Source: an uncultured Blautia sp. (GTDB taxonomy: Bacteria; Bacillota_A; Clostridia; Lachnospirales; Lachnospiraceae). Taken from it: a stretch of DNA of 22,676 nt. The stretch covers positions 1 to 22,676 of the forward strand of contig CAJLTE010000049.1 of assembly GCA_905209435.1 (NCBI GenBank), written 5' to 3'. Shown here one piece after another: positions 227-22,676 of the stretch. Position numbers and translations under genes: made by a program. Every line of letters begins with the position of its first letter. Within the stretch, counting starts at the first letter, position 1. The notes beneath the pieces were generated by a model. That model worked only from the letters and a program-made list of their open reading frames with translations, did no database searches and was not told where the DNA came from.

Positions 227-763
227 TTAATTTTTCCGTGTCAGTTCCTGATATTGGTCAAGAACAGCCATAATATTACTTGTAGCAATTTGATAAGATT
301 TTGCTACAAGCTTGTTAGCATTAACACTTAAAATCAACTTTTTTGCCTTAAAATTTGTTGCTTCTTTTTTCTTTTGTATATCATCCACCTGTTTTCCAAT
401 ATATACTTGTTCCACATCTTTACAAAACCAGATAAAGTCATACCCTTTATCATTGCAGTAACTTTTAGCCATTTCCAGAAATTTTGCATCATCTGGCTTT
501 GTATTATAATCATCACAGTCAAAACAATAAATTACTTTTGATCGATTATTTTTAGATCCTGCTTTATATTGAGAAACCAGTTTTCCTATTTCTTTTTCTT
601 TCTTACTGCTCTTATAGTTTCCTTTTCCATCCATATATACAACACTCAATTTAACCTGGGTTCGTTCATATGAATAGAAATGTTCTATCGTATCTTTAAT
701 GTATATCCAATCCGAATTGCATTTCTTATTTGTCTCAACGACAAAAATTAACTGGGTTCCCAT
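227..763 (-). CDS. Small TOPRIM/RloB-like protein paired with an ATPase
   Basis: This 178-residue protein has no family I can name with certainty. It starts with a hydrophobic strand (QLIFVVETNKK). Near residues 78-85 it has VIYCFDCDDYN, with acidic residues following a beta strand, then a predicted helix and a second strand ending YDFIWFCKDVEQVYIG. That order (glutamate after strand 1, DxDD after a later strand) is what TOPRIM-like nuclease effectors such as RloB show. The ATG overlaps the TAA of the upstream ATPase by one base (TAATG), and its ribosome binding site (GGGGG, 7 bases upstream) lies inside the ATPase coding end. The two genes are therefore translationally coupled. The likely role is the effector of a two-gene ATPase system. 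The nuclease assignment is an inference from motif order, with low to moderate confidence. Confidence 0.6.
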   Translation of the reverse strand: MGTQLIFVVETNKKCNSDWIYIKDTIEHFYSYERTQVKLSVVYMDGKGNYKSSKKEKEIGKLVSQYKAGSKNNRSKVIYCFDCDDYNTKPDDAKFLEMAKSYCNDKGYDFIWFCKDVEQVYIGKQVDDIQKKKEATNFKAKKLILSVNANKLVAKSYQIATSNIMAVLDQYQELTRKN

Positions 764-2139
764 TATTCATCCCCCTCATCTGAACCAAACACTCCTATAA
801 AGTCAATAGAATCTACATTAAATGGTGATCCTTCGATCATTCCATTTCTGTAAAGTTTAGATGGGGAATAATTTCCACTCTTCGTCCATGGATAAATTTT
901 ATGGTCTTCTGACAGAAAATCTATTGATTTTTTCCGTTGTTTCAAAACATCCATCGGTCCAACATTATGTGTAGTGAAGCAAAGCTGTCCCTCCCCGTAT
1001 TCCATCAAATATTCCAACAATGCACAAAGGTAAACATCATGAAGATTGGAATCAAACTCATCTATAAATACAATCCCGCCATGAACCATTTCTTTCAGAT
1101 ACATATACAACTTCATCAGCTTTTTTATACCAGTGCTTTCATATTCTGCATGAATTTTGTAAGACTCATAAACCATCACCAGATCACAAATCCAAAAATT
1201 ATGATTTTCTTTCCTGTCAATTTCAATCCCTCTCAAATCAGATTTAAAAATATGCAAAAAATCATATAACGCATTAATTGTCTTTTCAAATTTTCCATAT
1301 TCTTCCTCATATACCCAATTTTCAGAAACTGATATCTCTTCAAAACAATCATTATTCATTTCCAAAAAACTGATCATTAATGAATTAATTTCATCCTCAT
1401 TTTTTACTTTATCATGATAGATTTCCAGAGAATTACGAGTAACATATTCTCTATGATCATCTGATTGATCCAAATATACATATATCTTTTTTCCCAAAAT
1501 GTAAAGTGTACATATACTGACAAAAAGAAAGCCTTTTATTTCTTTAGATTGTTTTGCTGCCGGAATCAATATTTTCTCACTAAATAAAGCACTCATTGAA
1601 GCAGAAGATAACAAATTCATAGTCTTTTTTAAAATATCACGTGAAATTTTATCATGTTCTTCATTTTTATAAAAGATAATATCTTCTCCTTTGAATATCT
1701 CGAAAATAGTTTCCATAGGTTCTTTCCTGGATGTCGCTTTTCTGTAAGACAAACATTCATGAGAAATAATATATTTTCCCATATTATCTTTTGATAAAGT
1801 TACACTATATTTATAAATAAACAATCCGCTTCCTAATTTCGCCAAATATTCAGTTTCTATAAACAATTCATTTGTTTTCTTGTTTATAATTTCATCCAGA
1901 TTTTTCTGAACAATAGGATTATTTAAGTAGCCAGAATTCGTGATCAGATTTTTTAATATTTCAACAGAAGTTATAATACCCGACTTACCGGAACCATTCA
2001 TACCATAAATTCCCTTAATATTATATTTCTGTGTATCAAGTTCCTTTGAAATAGTTTTCTTGTAAAAAGATAATGACACAAGCTGATCTAATGTCTTTAC
2101 TCCCTTAACCGAATAATTAAGCAAATAGATATCCTTCAT
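763..2139 (-). CDS. ABC/SMC-type AAA ATPase, candidate defence sensor
   Basis: This is a 458-residue ATPase of the AAA_15/AAA_21 (overcoming-lysogenization/RloA-like) type. Walker A is GMNGSGKS at residues 46-53, after a short N-terminal beta region. A long insert of mixed helices follows. Walker B, IVFIDEFD, is at about 356-363, and an H-loop-like TTHN at about 389-392. The C-terminus ends with a conserved-looking SPFNVDSIDFIGVFG. Such ATPases normally act with a nuclease partner, as in PARIS, Septu and some retron systems; here the partner is the overlapping downstream gene. I chose the ATG at 2139 because GGAGG (2149-2153) lies 9 bases upstream; an upstream in-frame ATG at 2295 would run into the neighbouring IS remnant. 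AT-rich composition and the adjoining IS remnant suggest horizontal transfer. It is intact by length. Confidence 0.75.
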   Translation of the reverse strand: MKDIYLLNYSVKGVKTLDQLVSLSFYKKTISKELDTQKYNIKGIYGMNGSGKSGIITSVEILKNLITNSGYLNNPIVQKNLDEIINKKTNELFIETEYLAKLGSGLFIYKYSVTLSKDNMGKYIISHECLSYRKATSRKEPMETIFEIFKGEDIIFYKNEEHDKISRDILKKTMNLLSSASMSALFSEKILIPAAKQSKEIKGFLFVSICTLYILGKKIYVYLDQSDDHREYVTRNSLEIYHDKVKNEDEINSLMISFLEMNNDCFEEISVSENWVYEEEYGKFEKTINALYDFLHIFKSDLRGIEIDRKENHNFWICDLVMVYESYKIHAEYESTGIKKLMKLYMYLKEMVHGGIVFIDEFDSNLHDVYLCALLEYLMEYGEGQLCFTTHNVGPMDVLKQRKKSIDFLSEDHKIYPWTKSGNYSPSKLYRNGMIEGSPFNVDSIDFIGVFGSDEGDE

Positions 2140-2192
2140 TCCTGTATACCTCCTGTTCATATTCTTAATATACCCCATTTTATATAAAAAAT

Positions 2193-2209
2193 AAATACAA
2201 ATTGTATTT
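2193..2209. promoter_or_regulatory. 17-base palindrome upstream of the ATPase gene
   Basis: AAATACAA-A-TTGTATTT is a perfect 8+1+8 palindrome, 54 bases upstream of the ATPase start and 17 bases before the IS orfA start. It could be an operator for the ATPase operon or part of the old IS end. No regulator gene is adjacent. Confidence 0.4.
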
Positions 2210-2225
2210 TTTATTCCATTTTTTA

Positions 2226-2801
2226 TGACTAAATATTCTTTTGAATTCAAGAAAAAAATTGTTTTAGCATACTTGAACAAAGAAGGTGGGTACAAATATC
2301 ATTCTAAAACATACGGCGTTTCTGGTAAAACAAGTATTGAAAAATGGGTTCATAATTATTAAACTTTTGGAGATGAAGGTTTATTGCGCTCCCGCAAAAA
2401 TGAATATATTCTTTCGAAAAAAGCTTTCTGTTGTAGAATTATATTTATCAAGTGAAATCTCATATCAAGATTTAGCTCTGCAAGAAGGAATTACTAACCC
2501 ATGTATGATTACGAGCTGGGTTAATCGCTTTCGAGCAGCTGGTTCTGATGCGTTGAGACCACATAAGAAAGGCCGAAAGAAAACATTGGGTAAATCAGGT
2601 AAGAATCCGAAAATAGCACCATTAGAAGAGCTTTCCGTTGACACAAGTGCAGAGCATGTAAAAGAACTGGAAGATGAACTTCTGAAGTTAAGAATAGAGA
2701 ATGCACTTTTAAAAGAACTGAGGAGACTGCGTTTAAAGGACCAAGCAAAAATGAGAGAACGGCAAGAATCATCATCAGTCTCCGAAGACAATTCAAATTA
2801 A
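2226..2801 (+). pseudogene. IS150-like transposase orfA, broken
   Basis: The frame from ATG 2226 begins MTKYSFEFKKKIVLAYL and shows the first HTH (KYHSKTYGVSGKTSIEKWV), then hits a TAA after HNY at about 2359. The same frame continues as TFGDEGLLRSRKNE, which is the expected orfA sequence, so the stop is a point nonsense change. A second lesion, a one-base-type frameshift near 2400-2420, moves the reading into another frame for the second HTH (YQDLALQEGI, SWVNRFRAAG) and the coiled-coil end rich in E, L and K. In IS150 elements orfA supplies DNA binding and is joined to orfB by programmed frameshifting. Neither a full orfA nor a fusion can be made here. Confidence 0.8.
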
Positions 2802-3275
2802 AAGAACTTCTCTCATATACCGGAATGCCAAAATCCACATATATGTACTGGCAAAAGCGTTTTGATAGAGAAAATCCAGATCGGAAAATTGAGGAAAAAA
2901 CACTTCAAATACGTAAAGAACATAATGGATGCTTTAGATAATGCACTTGAGATCATTGCAGACTGCCCGTACAGAAAAACTTTTCATTCTGATCAAGGAT
3001 GGTCTTACCAGATGAAAGCATACTCTCATAGACTAAAAGAAGAATGCATATTTCAAAGTATGTCACAAAAGGGAAACTGCCTGGATAATTCTGTAATGGA
3101 AAACTTTTTTGGACTACTCAATCAAGAAATTTACTATGGTGTCGTTTACTATAGCTACGAGGAATTAAAATCTGAGATAGAACATTTTACAAAATACTAC
3201 AATGAGAAACGAATAAATGAGAAGTTAGGATGGATGAGCCCCGTTCAATACAGGATCCATCTTCTAGCTGCATAA
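2755..3275 (+). pseudogene. IS150-like transposase orfB with internal deletion
   Basis: The 5' part encodes RIIISLRRQFKLKELLSYTG and GMPKSTYMYWQKRF, as in the N-terminus of IS150 OrfB, up to EHNGCF at about 2935, then a stop. From about 2922, in a different frame, the C-terminal part resumes: LDNALEIIADCPY, HSDQGWSYQ (second catalytic Asp), GNCLDNSVMENFF (catalytic Glu) and the conserved end WMSPVQYRIHLLAA. About 100-110 residues between these parts, including the first catalytic Asp region, are absent. The two pieces share GGATGCTTT/ATGCTTTAGA at the join, which suggests deletion at a short repeat. The product would be inactive. Confidence 0.8.
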
Positions 3276-3282
3276 AGAAAAA

Positions 3283-3304
3283 CGAGACGGCCAAAGTCGT
3301 CTCG
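3283..3304. repeat. Stem-loop at the IS right end
   Basis: CGAGACG (3283-3289) and CGTCTCG (3298-3304) form a perfect 7-bp stem with an 8-base loop, 7 bases after the orfB stop and preceded by an A run. On the minus strand it is followed by TTTTTCTTT, so it could stop transcription entering from the sstT side. Confidence 0.5.
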
Positions 3305-3366
3305 CAAAAGTCTAACTTTAAACGGCCGCCCTCACCGGACGACCGTCGTATGGGATTTCCCATTTC

Positions 3367-4593
3367 TTATTTAAATTTAATCTCTTTTCCTTCCAGTCTC
3401 CACTGTCTGAATTCTGCGGATGCAGATAACAGAAGGTCTGAGGAGGAGTTCAGGGCTGTTTCTACAGAATCCTGAATTACGCCGATAATGAACCCTACAG
3501 CAACAACCTGCATGGAAATGTCATCGGAAATTCCGAACAGGGAGCATGCCATTGGGATCAGAAGAAGTGATCCGCCGGCTACACCGGAAGCACCGCATGC
3601 TGACAGCGCAGCAAGGAGACTCAGAATGATGGCTGTCGGAATATCTACATGGATACCAAGTGTAAATGCAGTTGCCATTGTCATAACTGTAATAGTAATG
3701 GCTGCACCGTCCATGTTAATAGTAGCACCAAGCGGAATGGTTACAGAATAAGTATCTCTGTCTAATCCCATCTCTTCGCAGACTTTCATATTTACCGGAA
3801 TGTTCGCTGCGGAACTTCTTGTAAAGAATGCTGTCAGCGCACTTCTCTTCAGGCAGTGGAAGATCAATGGATAAGGATTCTGGCGGATACACCAGTAAAC
3901 CAGAAGTGGGTTTGTTACGAAATAGATGAAAAGCATACATCCTACAAGAAGGACAAGCAATTTTCCATATGTTGTAAAAATCTCCAGACCATTGGTTGAT
4001 ACTGTATTAAATACCAAGCCAAAGATTCCTACAGGTGCAAGGTTAATGATCCATGTTACTACCATAGAAATTCCGTCTGCAACATCAGCCAGAACTTTTT
4101 TAGTCATCTTATCTGCTACACGGAATGCAAGTCCCAGCAGGATTGCCCACATCAGGATTCCTACATAGTTTGCATTTACCAACGATGATACCGGATTTGC
4201 AACTACATTCAGAAGCAGATTATTTAATACTTCTGCAATACCCTGCGGTGCACTTGTATCTGTTGCTGCTGTAGCAAGTGTCAGCTTTACAGGAAATGCC
4301 ATACTTGCAAATACTGCGATCACTGCTGCCAGTACTGTACTGAACATATACAGAATGATAACCGTCTTAATAACACCGCCATGAGATTTTCCTGCATTGC
4401 ACAGAGAACTGATAACAAGGAAAAATACCAGTAACGGCGCAATAGCCTTTAATGCACTTACAAAGACATCACCCAGGATTGTAATACCTGTTGCCTGCGG
4501 TACAGCGATTCCAAGAATCGCACCCAGGATCAGGCCCACCAGAATCCTCTTTACCAGAGCGATCTCTGTCCATTTGTCCCATAATTTCTTCAT
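3367..4593 (-). CDS. sstT: Serine/threonine:sodium symporter SstT
   Basis: The 408-residue protein matches SstT (E. coli 414 aa), a dicarboxylate/amino acid:cation symporter (DAACS) that imports L-serine and L-threonine with sodium at the inner membrane. It starts KLWDKWTEIALVKRILVGL and has about eight hydrophobic segments, a serine-rich reentrant loop (AFFTRSSAANIPVN), the cation-binding motif GATINMDGAAITI, and a second hairpin near SACGASGVAGGSLLLIP. The ATG at 4593 was chosen because GAGG (4603-4606) lies 9 bases upstream and the family start is exactly MKKLW; a longer in-frame extension to 4695 would include the promoter. It is a single-gene unit with its own promoter at 4642-4670, separated from the upstream sugar operon by a terminator. 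Confidence 0.93.
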   Translation of the reverse strand: MKKLWDKWTEIALVKRILVGLILGAILGIAVPQATGITILGDVFVSALKAIAPLLVFFLVISSLCNAGKSHGGVIKTVIILYMFSTVLAAVIAVFASMAFPVKLTLATAATDTSAPQGIAEVLNNLLLNVVANPVSSLVNANYVGILMWAILLGLAFRVADKMTKKVLADVADGISMVVTWIINLAPVGIFGLVFNTVSTNGLEIFTTYGKLLVLLVGCMLFIYFVTNPLLVYWCIRQNPYPLIFHCLKRSALTAFFTRSSAANIPVNMKVCEEMGLDRDTYSVTIPLGATINMDGAAITITVMTMATAFTLGIHVDIPTAIILSLLAALSACGASGVAGGSLLLIPMACSLFGISDDISMQVVAVGFIIGVIQDSVETALNSSSDLLLSASAEFRQWRLEGKEIKFK

Positions 4594-11825: not shown

Positions 11826-12904
11826 CACCCTTACCTGTATACGATGTAACTTTCCGCATATAGATCAGACCTGTCAGATCCGCCAGAATCCATCCGATCG
11901 GAACTGCTGCCCAGATGCCTTTTACTCCAATAGCAGGAACAGCTGACAGCACATAAGCCAGCACAACACGTGTTCCAAGGGAAATCACACTTTCCTGCAC
12001 CATAATTCTGTGCCACAAAAGTAGAAAATGCATTTCCAAAATCCTGAACAGGCATATAGGCAAAGGAATCAATCTTCACTGCTGCCGCAAATGCCGCCAT
12101 AACCGCAGTTCCAAAACTGTTGACCAACCCCTGTACCATCAGGATACCCAGATTCATAATAGACTGCTGCATACAGGTTAGCACAGACAGCCCTGTAATT
12201 TCTTTCAGAATAGAAGTATCCCACTTCATATGACATTTATTCACTCTCAGATGTGGGAATTTCACATAATAATAAATCATGATCCCTGCACCTGAAACAT
12301 ACTGGAAAAATACCGTTGCACCTGCTGCTCCTTTCACTCCCCAATGAAAAACAAGCACAAACAACAGATCCAGCAAAATATTCAGTACAGCAGAGAAAGC
12401 CAGAAATATCAGCGGCACTACTGAATTTCCTACTGCCCTCAACAGATTAGCAAAATAATTATATAAGAAGGTAGCCACCATTCCCATAAAAATAATCCAA
12501 AGATAATCTCTCATCAGTCCCTGGATCTCTGCCGGAATCTGCAGTAACCGAATAATCAATCCCAATTTCCATACCACCAGGAAATTCAAAGCCAGCGTGA
12601 TCGCCCCAATCAGCACAAAGGACAGAAAGAAGCTCTTCTTAAGTCTGTCTGTATCTCCGGCTCCATACTGCATGGAAAAAAAGGCACTGCTTCCCATACA
12701 AAGTCCCAGTATAATAGAAGTCAGAAACACCATCAAAGTATAAGCAGATCCCACTGCCGCCAGTGCATCTGCCCCCAGAAAACGACCCACGATCAGTGTA
12801 TCCGCGATATTATAGCATTGCTGCAAAAGATTTCCTATCATAAGAGGAAATGCAAACTTCAGGAGTTTCCCTGTAATGCTGCCTTCTGTCAGATTGTATT
12901 CCAT
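11821..12904 (-). pseudogene. MATE-family efflux pump with internal deletion
   Basis: The 5' part encodes a clear MATE drug/sodium antiporter: TEGSITGKLLKFAFPLMIGNL, YNIADTLIVGRFLG, and about eight membrane segments, up to FSTFVAQNYGAGK near 12025. MATE proteins of this type are about 445 residues. After GAGK the reading jumps directly, out of frame, to sequence that in another frame gives VISLGTRVVLAYVLSA and PAIGVKGIWAAVPIGW, the normal C-terminal end, stopping at 11821. About 100 residues between these parts are missing and the frame is lost. The open frame instead runs on in nonsense sequence to 11831. The pump is almost certainly inactive. The ATG at 12904 has GGGAG 16 bases upstream, an unusually long spacing. 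Confidence 0.85.
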
Positions 12905-14401: not shown

Positions 14402-14422
14402 CCCTGTAAACAGGCATTTTGC

Positions 14423-14451
14423 TTGTGTTTATTATTTTATATCTGTATAAT
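14423..14451 (+). promoter_or_regulatory. Promoter of the asparaginase gene
   Basis: TTGTGT (14423-14428) and a perfect TATAAT (14446-14451) are 17 bases apart. Transcription would start near 14458, giving a leader of about 175 bases. The two divergent promoters are only 21 bases apart. Confidence 0.6.
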
Positions 14452-14501
14452 TATCATTATCAGACACAAATTAGAATTTAGACCCAAACAATCAATCAAG
14501 C

Positions 14502-14602
14502 CAGACAATGTCTGCTTATATCCTAATAGCTGTTCCACAGCTTTTTAACTGGGCAAGTCCTTTGCTTCAATGCACAAAGCAATAAGCAATGGTGGACTTG
14601 CC
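14502..14602 (+). promoter_or_regulatory. Structured 5' leader of the asparaginase gene
   Basis: Three hairpins follow one another. CAGACA-A-TGTCTG (14502-14514) is a perfect palindrome. AGCTGT-TCC-ACAGCT followed by TTTTT (about 14528-14547) looks like a small intrinsic terminator. GGCAAGTCC (14552-14560) pairs with GGACTTGCC (14594-14602), with a nested TTGCTT/AAGCAA stem. The order suggests an attenuator, but I recognise no known riboswitch class. Confidence 0.5.
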
Positions 14603-14633
14603 ACAAATATTATAAGGAGTTTCAACAACTGTT

Positions 14634-15638
14634 ATGAAGAAAAAAATCCTGCTTATCGCTACAGGCGGTACCATCGCATCCAAATATACGGAAGACGGAC
14701 TTTCCCCGCAGATTTCCGCTGAGGAATTGTTACAGTATATCCCTGCTGCCGGAGATTTCTGCACTATTGATACCATCCAGCCATTTTCACTGGACAGTAC
14801 CAATGTCTGTGCTTCCCACTGGCTGGAGCTTGCAAAACTTATTGAAAAGAAATACGAATTTTACGATGGCTTCGTTATCTGCCATGGCACTGATACCATG
14901 GCTTACACAGCAGCCGCGCTCTCCTATCTGATTCAGAACAACCGTCGTCCGATCGTTATCACAGGCGCACAGAAACCCATCGATCTGGCGATCACAGATG
15001 CCCGTTCCAATCTCCTGGACAGCCTTCGTTTCGCATCCCATGACAGAGCACACGGCATCTGCATTGTATTCGGCGGAAAAGTTATCGCAGGTACCAGAGC
15101 AAAAAAAGAATTTTCCAAAAGTTACAATGCTTTTTCCAGCATTAATTATCCGGATATCGCTTCCATCCACGACAGCCGGATCATCTTTTACATTGATGAC
15201 AAAGACCAGAATACACGGCCACTTGTCTTTTATCACGAAATGAATAACCGGATCTTTCTCATGAAGCTGATCCCGGGTACAGACGGTAAGATCCTGGATA
15301 TGCTGTCACCTTCCTATGATGGACTGATCATCGAATCCTTCGGAGTCGGTGGGCTCCCCAATTACGGAAACGACAGCTTCCTCCACGCCCTCTCCGACTG
15401 GATGGAAGCAGGCAAACTGGTCTGCATGGCAACACAGGTCACACATGAAGGAAGCGATATGGAAGTCTATCAGGTAGGAAAAGTCATCAAAGACAAATTC
15501 CCGGTACTGGAATCCTACGACATGACCCTCGAAGCATCTGTTACCAAAATGATGTGGGTATTGGGCCAGACGAAAGATTTGGAAAAATGCAGGGAATTGT
15601 TTTACACTACGGTAAACCATGATCTGCTGTTTGTATGA
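14634..15638 (+). CDS. ansA: L-asparaginase, type I-like
   Basis: The 334-residue enzyme hydrolyses L-asparagine to aspartate and ammonia. It has no signal peptide, so it acts in the cytoplasm, and the sequence HGTDTMAYTAAALSYLI is closer to the E. coli type I enzyme than to the secreted type II. The two catalytic threonines are in TGGTIAS (Thr13) and HGTDTM (Thr86, with Asp87). The catalytic lysine is in GTRAKKEF. SFGVGGLPNYGND follows near residue 240. Length is typical (about 330-340). The ATG at 14634 has AAGGAG 14 bases upstream, unusually far; no closer in-frame start codon exists. The gene has its own promoter and a structured leader. Confidence 0.92.
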   Translation: MKKKILLIATGGTIASKYTEDGLSPQISAEELLQYIPAAGDFCTIDTIQPFSLDSTNVCASHWLELAKLIEKKYEFYDGFVICHGTDTMAYTAAALSYLIQNNRRPIVITGAQKPIDLAITDARSNLLDSLRFASHDRAHGICIVFGGKVIAGTRAKKEFSKSYNAFSSINYPDIASIHDSRIIFYIDDKDQNTRPLVFYHEMNNRIFLMKLIPGTDGKILDMLSPSYDGLIIESFGVGGLPNYGNDSFLHALSDWMEAGKLVCMATQVTHEGSDMEVYQVGKVIKDKFPVLESYDMTLEASVTKMMWVLGQTKDLEKCRELFYTTVNHDLLFV

Positions 15639-15683
15639 CAAAACTATCTGTTTGTTTTCCATGTAATAAAAAGTAAGGATATT

Positions 15684-15887
15684 ATGTCCGTTAATACTAC
15701 ACCTATTGATAATTTATACAAAAAAATTCCAAAGGATTCTAAATTATCATTTGATATTGAACATTCATCTGATTCTTTTTATTCTGAACAAAATATGACA
15801 CAGCTTCATAAATCTGCACAGCAGGTAAAAGAAGGTAAGATTATAACAAAGACAATGTAAGAGTTGGAGGCAATGGCTGATGAGTAA
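15684..15887 (+). pseudogene. RelB/DinJ-like antitoxin remnant with premature stop
   Basis: A 58-codon frame from ATG 15684 reads SKLSFDIEHSSDSFYSEQNM, then QLHKSAQQVKEGKIITKTM and TAA (15858-15860). In the same frame the sequence continues ELEAMADE to a second TAA at 15885, which is the normal end of this family (KTMEELEAMA). The stop therefore looks like a GAA-to-TAA change. The N-terminal part (about 20 residues) does not look like the usual ribbon-helix-helix domain, so the front of the antitoxin is lost or replaced; only the C-terminal toxin-binding half is recognisable. No toxin gene lies downstream. The same segment is about 63 percent identical (22 of 35 positions) to the tail of the DUF2284 protein at 21426-22028. 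Confidence 0.7.
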
Positions 15888-15896
15888 TAAAATGTC

Positions 15897-15930
15897 CCCC
15901 CGCAAATTGCGGGGGATTTTCTTATTTTTA
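15897..15930 (+). terminator. Strong GC-rich terminator
   Basis: CCCCCGC (15897-15903), loop of 5, GCGGGGG (15909-15915), then ATTTTCTTATTTTT. It lies 9 bases after the second stop of the antitoxin remnant and probably ends asparaginase or antitoxin transcription before citC. Confidence 0.85.
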
Positions 15931-17849: not shown

Positions 17850-18083
17850 TTAATATTGAATACCTTTCTCTGCCAGATATTTTTCTATCTCATCAATAAT
17901 AAGCTTCGATGAATTATACTGGTCTGTTGCATCTGTTAAAGATGCAACATAAAAATCATCATAATAGCTACGATTTATTGAATCCTTGTAATGTTGGCTT
18001 CCTAAACATAGTGCAGCTACTCCTAATGTCTCCACTGCATTTCGAATGCGGTATATACATAAATCTTCTTTCTTATTATTCAC
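17850..18083 (-). pseudogene. HEPN-domain toxin (HepT-like) with an in-frame internal deletion
   Basis: The 77-residue product starts like a HepT/HEPN protein: CIYRIRNAVETLGVAALCL, then HYKDSINRSYY at 31-41. The next residues, DDFYVASLTDATDQYN, are the usual C-terminal helix that normally follows about 55-65 residues later, where SYY is separated from DYDDFYVA by the helices carrying the catalytic RxxxxH motif. That segment is missing, and the join is at a shared Y/YD position, in frame. Full-length relatives are about 125-135 residues. The GTG at 18083, with GGGGG 9 bases upstream, overlaps the preceding nucleotidyltransferase by 8 bases, the normal MNT/HEPN arrangement. The product should be an inactive toxin. 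Confidence 0.75.
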
Positions 18084-18411
18084 AGATTACTACCCCCTCA
18101 TCCCTCACATTTCGGTAAAAAGGTAACGTATCAACCCAATACTCATACTGGGCTTCATTTTTAATAATAGGAGAAAATTCTATTCCTGTATTTATTTCAA
18201 ATTCAAATGCAAGATCATAAATATCATTCTTTACCAATCGAATTTCTTCATCAGACATTTTCACTAAAATCATAATATCTATATCAGAATTCTCCTGAAA
18301 GTCTCCTCTTGCATATGATCCATATACGATAACCTTTGTCAGTTTATCTCCCAAAATGTGTCTTAATTCTTGAGAAAATCTATATATGATACTCCTGATA
18401 TTTTCTGGCAT
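18076..18411 (-). CDS. MNT-type nucleotidyltransferase antitoxin
   Basis: This 111-residue minimal nucleotidyltransferase has the signature GSYARG at 31-36 and the catalytic aspartates Asp43 and Asp45 in ENSDIDIMI. In MNT/HEPN toxin-antitoxin systems such proteins (MntA) neutralise the HEPN RNase by AMPylating it. The gene is complete in length (family about 95-140). The downstream HEPN gene overlaps it by 8 bases but has lost its catalytic core, so this antitoxin may no longer have an active partner. The ribosome binding site before ATG 18411 is a modest GGGAAG. Confidence 0.85.
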   Translation of the reverse strand: MPENIRSIIYRFSQELRHILGDKLTKVIVYGSYARGDFQENSDIDIMILVKMSDEEIRLVKNDIYDLAFEFEINTGIEFSPIIKNEAQYEYWVDTLPFYRNVRDEGVVICE

Positions 18412-20723: not shown

Positions 20724-20752
20724 TTGACAAGCCATGTCCTTTGCGTTATTAT
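20724..20752 (+). promoter_or_regulatory. Promoter of the cobalamin riboswitch
   Basis: Perfect TTGACA (20724-20729), 17-base spacer, TATTAT (20747-20752). Transcription would begin near 20760, about 25 bases before the riboswitch. Confidence 0.8.
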
Positions 20753-20784
20753 AAGGTTAGTATAATTCCATACAGAACATATTA

Positions 20785-20963
20785 AGTGCTGATACCGCAG
20801 AGAAAAGGCGGTACAGAGAGAGGGAATCAGGTGAGAAACCTGAGCGATCCGGTCACTGTAACAGAGGAGCAGATCTCAGTATTCCATTGTGCCATAGCAT
20901 GAGAAGGAGAGACGCGCGATGATCCTGGAGCCAGGAAACCTGCTTAGTATGGCGAGGTTAAAC
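20785..20963 (+). promoter_or_regulatory. Cobalamin (vitamin B12) riboswitch
   Basis: The conserved core is readable in order: GGGAATCAGGTGAGAAACC (20822-20840), CCGGTCACTGTAAC (20849-20862), then GAGAAGGAGAGACGC and the B12-box segment GGAGCCAGGAAACCTGC (20927-20943). These match the consensus of the adenosyl/aquo-cobalamin riboswitch, with a slightly changed CACTG stretch (GTCACTG in place of GCCACTG). A P2-like stem (ATACCGC/GCGGTA) precedes it. Binding cobalamin would normally cut off expression of a downstream uptake, synthesis or B12-independent enzyme gene. Here the terminator follows, but no gene lies within 370 bases. Confidence 0.9.
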
Positions 20964-20980: not shown

Positions 20981-21049
20981 CAACCAACTCCGTTGAATCC
21001 GCAGCTTCGGAGTGTTGTCTGCTTTGATCGATAAAGGCAGACATTTTTT
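20981..21049 (+). terminator. Riboswitch expression platform: alternate hairpin and terminator
   Basis: CAAC...CTCCG (20981-20992) pairs with CGGAG.GTTG (21008-21017), then TGTCTGC (21016-21022) pairs with GCAGACA (21037-21043) before TTTTTT (21044-21049). The first hairpin overlaps the left arm of the second by two bases, so they compete, as in a transcription-control platform. Confidence 0.75.
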
Positions 21050-21354: not shown

Positions 21355-21363
21355 TGCTATAAT
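21355..21363 (+). promoter_or_regulatory. Extended -10 promoter of the DUF2284 gene
   Basis: TGC-TATAAT (21355-21363) is a perfect extended -10 box 63 bases upstream of the start codon, with a poor -35 (near 21335). It shows that the DUF2284 gene can be transcribed without the riboswitch. Confidence 0.6.
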
Positions 21364-21394: not shown

Positions 21395-21425
21395 TGTTTT
21401 TGTTCTACTGAAGGGAGACATTCTT

Positions 21426-22028
21426 ATGGATTTAATAAAAGAAGCACTTTCCATGGGCTTTGCAAATGCAGCGATCATGGATACGAAAGACCTGGTATTT
21501 GTACCAGAATACAGACAGTTCTGCGAAGACAATCTCTGCGGAAATTATAACCTGGTTCCTGCATGTCCACCTGCCTGCGGTACTGTTGAGGAAATGCATG
21601 AGAAAGCAATGAAATATGAGAAGGCACTGGTTCTCCAGACTGTCCTGAAAGATCCAGTCATGGATCCGGTTCTTTTTAAGCAAGCGAAGCATGCGCAGAA
21701 TATTCTTACGGAACAGCTTGCCAAATGGATGCAGGAAAATGGAAAAGAAGATGTCCTGATCATGAGCGCAGGACCGTATAAGAATTGTTCCTGTATGTCT
21801 GCCTACAGTGTGGATGCGCAGAAAATGGCTGATGCGGTTGGTATGGTCTGTTGGGCAGATGATTCAGATGTGAGATTCTTCACACAGATTTTGTTTCACG
21901 AAGACACTTTAGACCCATTCTATTCTGAACAGAATATGGCTTCAATTCATAAATCAATTCAGCAGATAAACGATGGAAAAATCGTATCCAAAACGATAGA
22001 TGAATTAGAGCAAATGGAAAATAACTAA
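21426..22028 (+). CDS. DUF2284 metal-binding protein with a RelB/DinJ-like C-terminal tail
   Basis: Residues 1-157 are a DUF2284 protein, a predicted metal-binding family of unknown function. Cysteines Cys33, Cys38, Cys47 and Cys51 (CGNYNLVPACPPACGT) and a CSC pair at 121-123 could hold a metal or iron-sulfur centre. Residues 163-200 (DPFYSEQNM, HKSIQQINDGK, KTIDELEQM) instead match the C-terminal toxin-binding segment of RelB/DinJ antitoxins. DUF2284 proteins normally end near the FFTQILF strand, so this is a fusion. A second copy of the tail is the broken remnant at 15684. AAGGGAG lies about 8 bases before the ATG. No toxin gene is seen. The function is unknown; metal handling and toxin capture are only suggestions. 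Confidence 0.75.
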   Translation: MDLIKEALSMGFANAAIMDTKDLVFVPEYRQFCEDNLCGNYNLVPACPPACGTVEEMHEKAMKYEKALVLQTVLKDPVMDPVLFKQAKHAQNILTEQLAKWMQENGKEDVLIMSAGPYKNCSCMSAYSVDAQKMADAVGMVCWADDSDVRFFTQILFHEDTLDPFYSEQNMASIHKSIQQINDGKIVSKTIDELEQMENN

Positions 22029-22040
22029 GAATCCTATAAA

Positions 22041-22094
22041 ATATGGCTGCACTGTATCTGGATTTAACTCAGATATAGCGTAGCCGTATTTTTT
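22041..22094 (+). terminator. Terminator after the DUF2284 gene
   Basis: ATATGGCT (22041-22048) pairs with AGCCGTAT (22082-22089, one G-U pair) outside an inner TATCTG/CAGATA stem, followed by TTTTTT. It lies 13 bases after the stop. Confidence 0.75.
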
Positions 22095-22146
22095 ACAGTT
22101 TGCAGTTTATACTTATTTATACTCTACTTTCTGCCTTTCGCAGATC

Positions 22147-22676
22147 TCACTCTTCTTCACGATGCTTATGATGTTCGTGACGTTTATGGTGTTTGTCATC
22201 CATCTTATGATGGTGTCCATGCTTATGTTTCGCATTTCCGCACACTTCACATCCAACTTCTATCTTCCCCTGTGTATCCTCATCCCAGGTTCCGTAGGAA
22301 ACCATCGGAGTATCTTTCATAATACACAGACTAATGGTCTGGTAAAGAATAATACCCCCCATTTTCGCTCTGTATACAAACAGTTCACGTCCAAAGTAAT
22401 CACAGATTCTTCCCAGTACTTCGCCCTCTTTAAATGTCTCACCCGGCTGTTTCGCAGAATACCAGCATCCTGATACCGGTGCGTCCTCATAGATGACAGG
22501 ACTTACTTCTACCGGTGGTTTTCCATGCATATGGGATTTACCGCGAAGAACTCCGAGATGTCTGAGAATATTCTTTACATCATGAACGTCTTCTGCCACC
22601 AGGTCTTCACACCAGCGGGAGCTGTGTCCACGTTCCAGCAGGATACTTGGGATTCCCATGCTTCCGGCATAGTTGT
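22147..22676 (-). CDS. Aspartoacylase/succinylglutamate desuccinylase-family protein, 5' end outside window
   Basis: The visible C-terminal part (about 176 residues) belongs to the AstE/AspA zinc-hydrolase family (M14-like), which removes an acyl group from an amino acid amide bond. GIPSILLERGHSS carries the conserved catalytic Glu strand (LLERG); the zinc-ligand region lies upstream, beyond the edge. The beta-barrel domain follows (APVSGCWYSAKQPGETFKEG, GRELFVYRAKMGGIILY). The last about 40 residues are unusual: a CEVCGN motif then a tail in which 11 of about 30 residues are His, together with Lys and Glu. The frame continues without a stop to the window edge (NYAGSMGIP), so the gene is partial and the internal ATG at 22659 is not its start. 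Confidence 0.85.
   Translation of the reverse strand, partial: NYAGSMGIPSILLERGHSSRWCEDLVAEDVHDVKNILRHLGVLRGKSHMHGKPPVEVSPVIYEDAPVSGCWYSAKQPGETFKEGEVLGRICDYFGRELFVYRAKMGGIILYQTISLCIMKDTPMVSYGTWDEDTQGKIEVGCEVCGNAKHKHGHHHKMDDKHHKRHEHHKHREEE

Follow-up and report, generated by a model that had tools for sequence, protein, structure and literature searches.

A DUF2284 gene of Blautia carries a captured C-terminal tail of a RelB-type antitoxin

How does a complete, cysteine-rich bacterial protein come to end in the toxin-binding tip of an antitoxin, and could that tip still work there? The question is raised by a single open reading frame (ORF) in a 22,676-nucleotide stretch of DNA from an uncultured Blautia sp. 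(GenBank assembly GCA_905209435.1, contig CAJLTE010000049.1, forward strand), which we call the window. The ORF, with exact limits at 21426–22028 on the plus strand, encodes 200 amino acids that an earlier note, made from the sequence alone, had described as a DUF2284 domain joined to the toxin-binding C-terminal end of RelB/DinJ antitoxins; a Pfam scan and comparison with a RelB alignment and profile bear out this description. On the sequence evidence set out below, we lean towards seeing an ordinary DUF2284 gene with a tolerated, captured relB tail, perhaps still able to bind the toxin YoeB, and not a dedicated sensor or toxin–antitoxin (TA) module.

The tail comprises residues 161–200 and the stop codon (21906–22028, plus strand), as delimited by alignment and by our own RelB profile; homology to RelB begins at Asp163 (base 21912), with Thr161–Leu162 as a linker. 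A query built from the tail and a second antitoxin remnant at 15684–15887 (with X at the stop of the remnant) retrieved 38 proteins at E ≤ 1, including 90-residue antitoxins annotated PF04221 (for example P0122 and P0124) whose last 38 residues align with fusion residues 163–200. P0122 is the best-scoring of eight full-length relatives compared, and the tail is identical to it at 24 of 35 residues. A profile of 15 full-length RelB proteins gives the tail 55.9 bits against 9.3 for the best of 500 shuffled tails, a score that is not fully independent because these proteins were gathered with a profile that contained the tail; the same profile finds no match at E 10 in 45 tail-less DUF2284 proteins or in fusion residues 1–160. 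At 56.0, the tail also falls within the leave-one-out range of 42.9–64.5 for 22 antitoxins. The expectation that the tail would score against RelB/DinJ profiles therefore holds for our own profile and not for curated ones: no Pfam or NCBIfam model matches the tail alone at E up to 10, and the Pfam RelB match in P0122 and P0124 ends at their residue 56, just inside the tail-homologous segment. Searched alone against the 64 genus genomes, the tail finds seven loci in 6 of them at E ≤ 0.1 (lowest E 1.9e-5), and of the five loci read, four have the full RelB/DinJ layout and one is short. All eight positions (D, P, F, Y, S, N, Q and G) that show little or no variation across a 19-row RelB alignment (A4) are kept in the tail, which ends in ENN. 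At residue 196 it has Gln where the 12 antitoxins of a 13-row alignment (A6) have Ala, making it the sole exception. Toxin binding by the tail is thus possible, allowed and not proven by its sequence. The N-terminal ribbon-helix-helix domain of RelB/DinJ, which serves DNA binding and dimerisation, is absent from the fusion by Pfam scan, and DUF2284 stands in its place.

Comparison with tail-less relatives reveals how the tail arrived. In genome G016 the counterparts of window positions 21410–21904 (93.5%) and 22027–22674 (87.6%) adjoin, overlapping by 4 bases; relative to this tail-less site (L057), the window thus has about 122 bp more (21905–22026, plus strand). AAGA occurs at both junctions, where target duplication and microhomology cannot be told apart. 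Starting directly past the point where the domain naturally ends, the insert brings a new in-frame end and stop. Within the genus, a search of 64 genomes at E ≤ 1e-20 finds DUF2284 homologues in 29, none of them with the tail, from which we infer a gain in the window and not a loss in all relatives. The closest comparisons are a homologue in G001 (L001), 99% identical over residues 1–160 and ending at HED, and one in a strain titled Blautia wexlerae (L002), 94% identical; both lack the tail. We rejected the idea that tail-less spacers hold leftovers of a deleted tail, as shuffled sequences score as well: for spacer L028, 180 of 1,000 shuffles were as good against the insert and 24 of 1,000 against the remnant, and for L030 the counts were 345 and 371 of 1,000. 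At the level of sequence, these comparisons demonstrate the capture of an antitoxin tail by a DUF2284 gene. The insertion would have displaced the stop codon of that gene, supplying in its place the final ~38 codons, with their stop, from a relB of the relB–yoeB type.

The fusion was found as one narrow protein type. Of 463 homologues, 120 were listed, and 75 of these 120 bear the tail (872 contigs as printed) while 45 do not, with no partial or cut tail among them. A search with residues 158–200 returned exactly 75 proteins of 110–350 residues, all of them the DUF2284 fusions; because it depends on shared five-residue words, diverged fusions could be missed. A 99-residue fragment (P0121) bears the same tail. 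DUF2284 proteins with this tail, which the earlier note proposed to list, do exist, and were found as one set of near-identical sequences only; their named sources are Blautia wexlerae (P0048, 97% identical), Blautia sp. and uncultured Blautia (P0034 and P0060), and a Eubacteriales metagenome-assembled genome (P0059). If DUF2284 homologues commonly ended in the same residues, an antitoxin origin would be undermined, and such an ending occurs in 0 of the 29 genus homologues and 0 of the 45 listed tail-less relatives. Tail-less forms are common, the 90% clusters P0084, P0085, P0086 and P0087 holding 435, 248, 1,356 and 345 member sequences, respectively. Bodies with the tail show variation at common sites (14, 58, 59, 62, 78, 100, 101, 105 and 110), and the body of P0060 lies one residue from tail-less P0085 and one from tail-less P0086, with a tail the same as that of the window protein (P0001). 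Because the tail sits on differing body haplotypes, recombination would have carried it between strains, or it was lost several times.

Apart from its tail, the protein looks like an ordinary member of its family. The DUF2284 body (residues 1–160; 21426–21905, plus strand), defined by Pfam and an 18-sequence alignment, passes the curated cut-off for PF10050 (76.4 bits against 25, E 2.7e-21) and has the conserved cysteine set: Cys33, Cys38, Cys47, Cys123 and Cys142 are invariant and Cys51 nearly so in that alignment (A5). Tail-less homologues keep the same cysteines, which therefore serve something other than the tail. Pfam matches of P0001 to CdiI_N and Sm_like lie under the cut-off and were disregarded. 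An AlphaFold model based on 18 sequences (mean pLDDT 75, pTM 0.69) folds most of residues 1–160, with 38–49 and 117–122 below 50 pLDDT, and places the tail outside the core as helices 168–182 and 190–196 at low to middling confidence (block means 46–70). No convincing solved structure for DUF2284 was found by sequence, and Foldseek with the predicted model returned nothing at E ≤ 0.001. Searches for DUF2284 found none in viral contigs and only distant matches in plasmids. In the open-licence literature searched, DUF2284 is merely named once in a table per paper and no paper links it with Blautia. Upstream of the gene, we read by eye an extended −10 motif, TGCTATAAT, at 21355–21363 (plus strand), and four tail-less relatives have TGTTATAAT at the same place; on this ground we take the fusion gene to be expressed as in those relatives.

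Which toxin would such a tail bind? Among the 397 genomes of the family of G001, which we take to be Lachnospiraceae, a P0124-like antitoxin at E ≤ 1e-20 occurs in 12, and a YoeB-like ORF lies directly 3′ of it in seven (L061, L062, L063, L065, L067, L069 and L071). An eighth such ORF, L086, is at the same place as L066; in two cases the toxin looks broken by eye (L060/L085 and L064/L093), and none was seen at L068 or L070. Pfam confirmed YoeB (PF06769) for all four toxins tested, three after P0124-like antitoxins and one after L014. In the Blautia group, 11 of 64 genomes have a relative of P0122 at E ≤ 1e-8, and among 14 places read there, L014, L016 and L018 have YoeB-like neighbours and L021, L022 and L025–L027 have other toxins by eye. 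Run against the PDB, the tail profile scores best with chain A of 6l8g, an 'Antitoxin' chain 38 residues long from an entry also holding YoeB, at an E of only 0.44. The likely partner of such tails is thus mostly YoeB, replacing the RelE/YafQ-type toxin of the earlier note. For the fusion itself, no adjacent cognate toxin gene of a type II TA system was found: the gene downstream (22147–22659, minus strand) has no Pfam match at E 0.01, and a YoeB profile and tblastn give nothing above noise in the window. PF06769 matches at E ≤ 1e-5 occur in 14 of 64 genus genomes, some as fragments. Of the four genomes nearest by DUF2284, G016, G064 and G002 have none at this threshold and G001 (Blautia sp. 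MSJ-9) has a 30-residue match only; there, L080 1740–1841 covers the last 34 positions of the YoeB profile, its C-terminal end, with no RelB-profile match in the surrounding 4 kb.

The window holds further antitoxin debris. The second RelB remnant (15684–15887, plus strand) lacks the N-terminal DNA-binding part and has an in-frame stop near its end; with that stop set to X, it scores 59.9 with the RelB profile. It is related to the tail as previously noted, at exactly the 22 of 35 identical residues counted then (72 of 101 alignment columns in DNA), and lies 5.5 kb away, a correction from 6 kb. Its last bases, ATGAGTAA, look by eye like a toxin start of the overlapping kind seen in intact operons, and no toxin follows. 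A 58-residue database protein (P0129, 19 members) is 98% identical to it. For the asparaginase–remnant block, at about 14414–15906, L001 shows no match at its counterpart position, and neither do the 20 kb of G016 that were compared. We read these remnants as pieces of a decayed relB–yoeB system, left in several places.

Tails of this kind are found on other proteins as well. A 13-row tail profile gave 103 matches in 69 of the 397 family genomes, of which 46 were read, among them all those lying in open frames of at least 125. An ATPase_2/DUF234 protein (L123) has a RelB- or YefM-type tail that is a clear addition: among 60 genomes searched, 10 others hold homologues, at 11 places, and none of the nine places read has the tail. 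The tail of an ion channel (L115) is likewise a clear addition, lacking in all three homologues found in 80 genomes, and a ParE toxin (PF05016; L149) carries a YefM-type half-tail. Stranded antitoxin ends lie at L092, L095, L101 and L105. A LysR regulator (L119) with a 12-residue stub ending in SDPFYSEINMKRL is a suggestive case, but its weak score (E 9.2e-4 per genome in the 397) left it uncounted, and an internal match of 19.5 bits (L116) was taken as chance. Across 391 genomes of what is presumably the class Clostridia, the profile gave 55 matches in 41 genomes, with no frame above 147; three new matches were read, and G086 and G124 belong to both genome sets. Judged by these additions, antitoxin tails are grafted more than once, at low frequency. 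A bolder proposal, which we regard as doubtful, is that YoeB-binding tails form a portable C-terminal tag that gut Clostridia would repeatedly graft onto unrelated, independently expressed proteins, here counting the DUF2284 protein, the ATPase_2/DUF234 protein, the ion channel and the ParE toxin, and that would protect from YoeB addiction without a toxin.

Related genes occur on mobile elements, which may or may not reach this host. Distant RelB homologues occur in 13 plasmid and four phage records, one of the plasmids (31%) being from Blautia. Two viral contigs contain an antitoxin with a YoeB-like ORF (by eye), of RelB type in L083 and of YefM type in L084. In L083, an IMG/VR contig, the pair lies at 2992–3532, and the flanking genes look by eye like what we presume to be phage tail genes.

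In the account we prefer, the protein would keep its DUF2284 role, the tail would be a tolerated helical appendage outside any dedicated sensor or TA module that may still bind YoeB, and recombination would have moved it between strains. The earlier note was right to count a harmless fusion among the possibilities. Three points weigh against this account. The 75 tail-bearing proteins show 50 distinct substitutions over 160 body residues and 7 over 40 tail residues, a weak sign of either constraint or youth, adverse where it reflects constraint; no cut tail occurs among the 75 clusters, for which youth or selection could be the reason; and an intact YoeB may lie elsewhere in the source genome, the search having covered the window. 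A rival that we consider possible, if rather unlikely, is a working orphan antitoxin: sitting on a separately expressed protein, the tail would trap the YoeB that phages or plasmids bring in (anti-addiction), or one made by an orphan yoeB of the cell itself. The eight retained RelB positions, the match to 6l8g (even at E 0.44), the antitoxin and YoeB-like pairs in viral contigs and the conserved promoter motif are consistent with it, and chromosomal antitoxins acting in anti-addiction are described in PMC7354431. Against it stand the lack of any YoeB adjoining the gene or in the window, nearest relatives without an intact YoeB, and a tail that matches its best relative at only 24 of 35 residues and replaces a nearly invariant Ala with Gln196; changes at contact points would limit antitoxin cross-reactivity between YoeB–YefM operons, according to PMC7256200.

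Other explanations fare worse. The tail might serve proteases as a handle, rendering the DUF2284 protein short-lived or subject to stress regulation, an improbable idea to which its predicted position outside the core and the Lon dependence of YoeB activation in heat (PMC4554461) lend something; a degradation tag would have no need of conserved toxin-contact residues. We give very little credence to the metal- or redox-sensing antitoxin of the earlier note, in which the cysteine domain would control whether the tail binds a toxin. The conserved cysteines do share a chain with a tail that has not decayed, but the cysteines are also kept in tail-less homologues, the fusion was found only as near-identical proteins and no toxin gene lies nearby in the window; nothing was found in support of sensing. 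Chance resemblance or an assembly artefact, for which one could cite the silence of the curated models, is scarcely conceivable given the margin over 500 shuffles and the 872 contigs as printed. The locus is a clear case of a protein, complete in itself, that ends in a toxin-binding peptide foreign to it; a relative still shows the site without the tail. Should such grafts work, they would offer a toxin-free escape from addiction modules; if they do not, they would show antitoxin debris turning into coding sequence.

Three other features of the window are recorded here. A cobalamin riboswitch (RF00174, 90 bits) at 20767–20961 (plus strand) is flanked by a promoter-like site (20724–20752) and a terminator-like site (21016–21043), without an obvious B12 gene right behind it; no such riboswitch was found in L057, L001, L058 or L059, and L002 has one elsewhere (11979–12172, minus strand). 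At 17850–18411 (minus strand), a nucleotidyltransferase (PF01909; PADLOC PDC-S09) overlaps a 77-residue partner without Pfam or PADLOC match, which we take to resemble a nucleotidyltransferase/HEPN-type pair. An AbiLi-like AAA ATPase (PADLOC E 2.2e-32) followed by a 178-residue protein without Pfam or PADLOC match spans 227–2295 (minus strand), close to an integrase-core ORF at 2862–3275.

Set beside known systems, the fusion combines features of several. As a member of DUF2284 (PF10050), predicted metal-binding proteins, it has the full domain and the conserved cysteines, but it runs to residue 200 where the close tail-less relatives read stop at about residue 155–167. With RelB/DinJ antitoxins (PF04221) of relB–yoeB operons it shares the C-terminal ~38 residues, homologous by our profile and including the eight A4 positions; unlike them, it lacks the ribbon-helix-helix half, has no adjacent yoeB that we could find and places the segment behind a complete foreign domain. 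Some Phd/YefM antitoxins (PF02604), which pair with YoeB, end in the second half of the tail (GKxVxKTxEELExM), and several lie beside a YoeB-like ORF; of two such antitoxins compared with PF02604, one scores above the cut-off and one just below, and the type differs in its N-terminal fold and in lacking the DPFYSE half. Our searches of open-licence literature turned up no antitoxin-tail graft of this kind and no paper on TA systems of Blautia wexlerae. A further comparison is with the orphan and anti-addiction antitoxins treated in PMC7354431, which share with the fusion an antitoxin segment without its toxin; the orphans described there are antitoxin genes, whereas here the segment is a tail on an unrelated protein.
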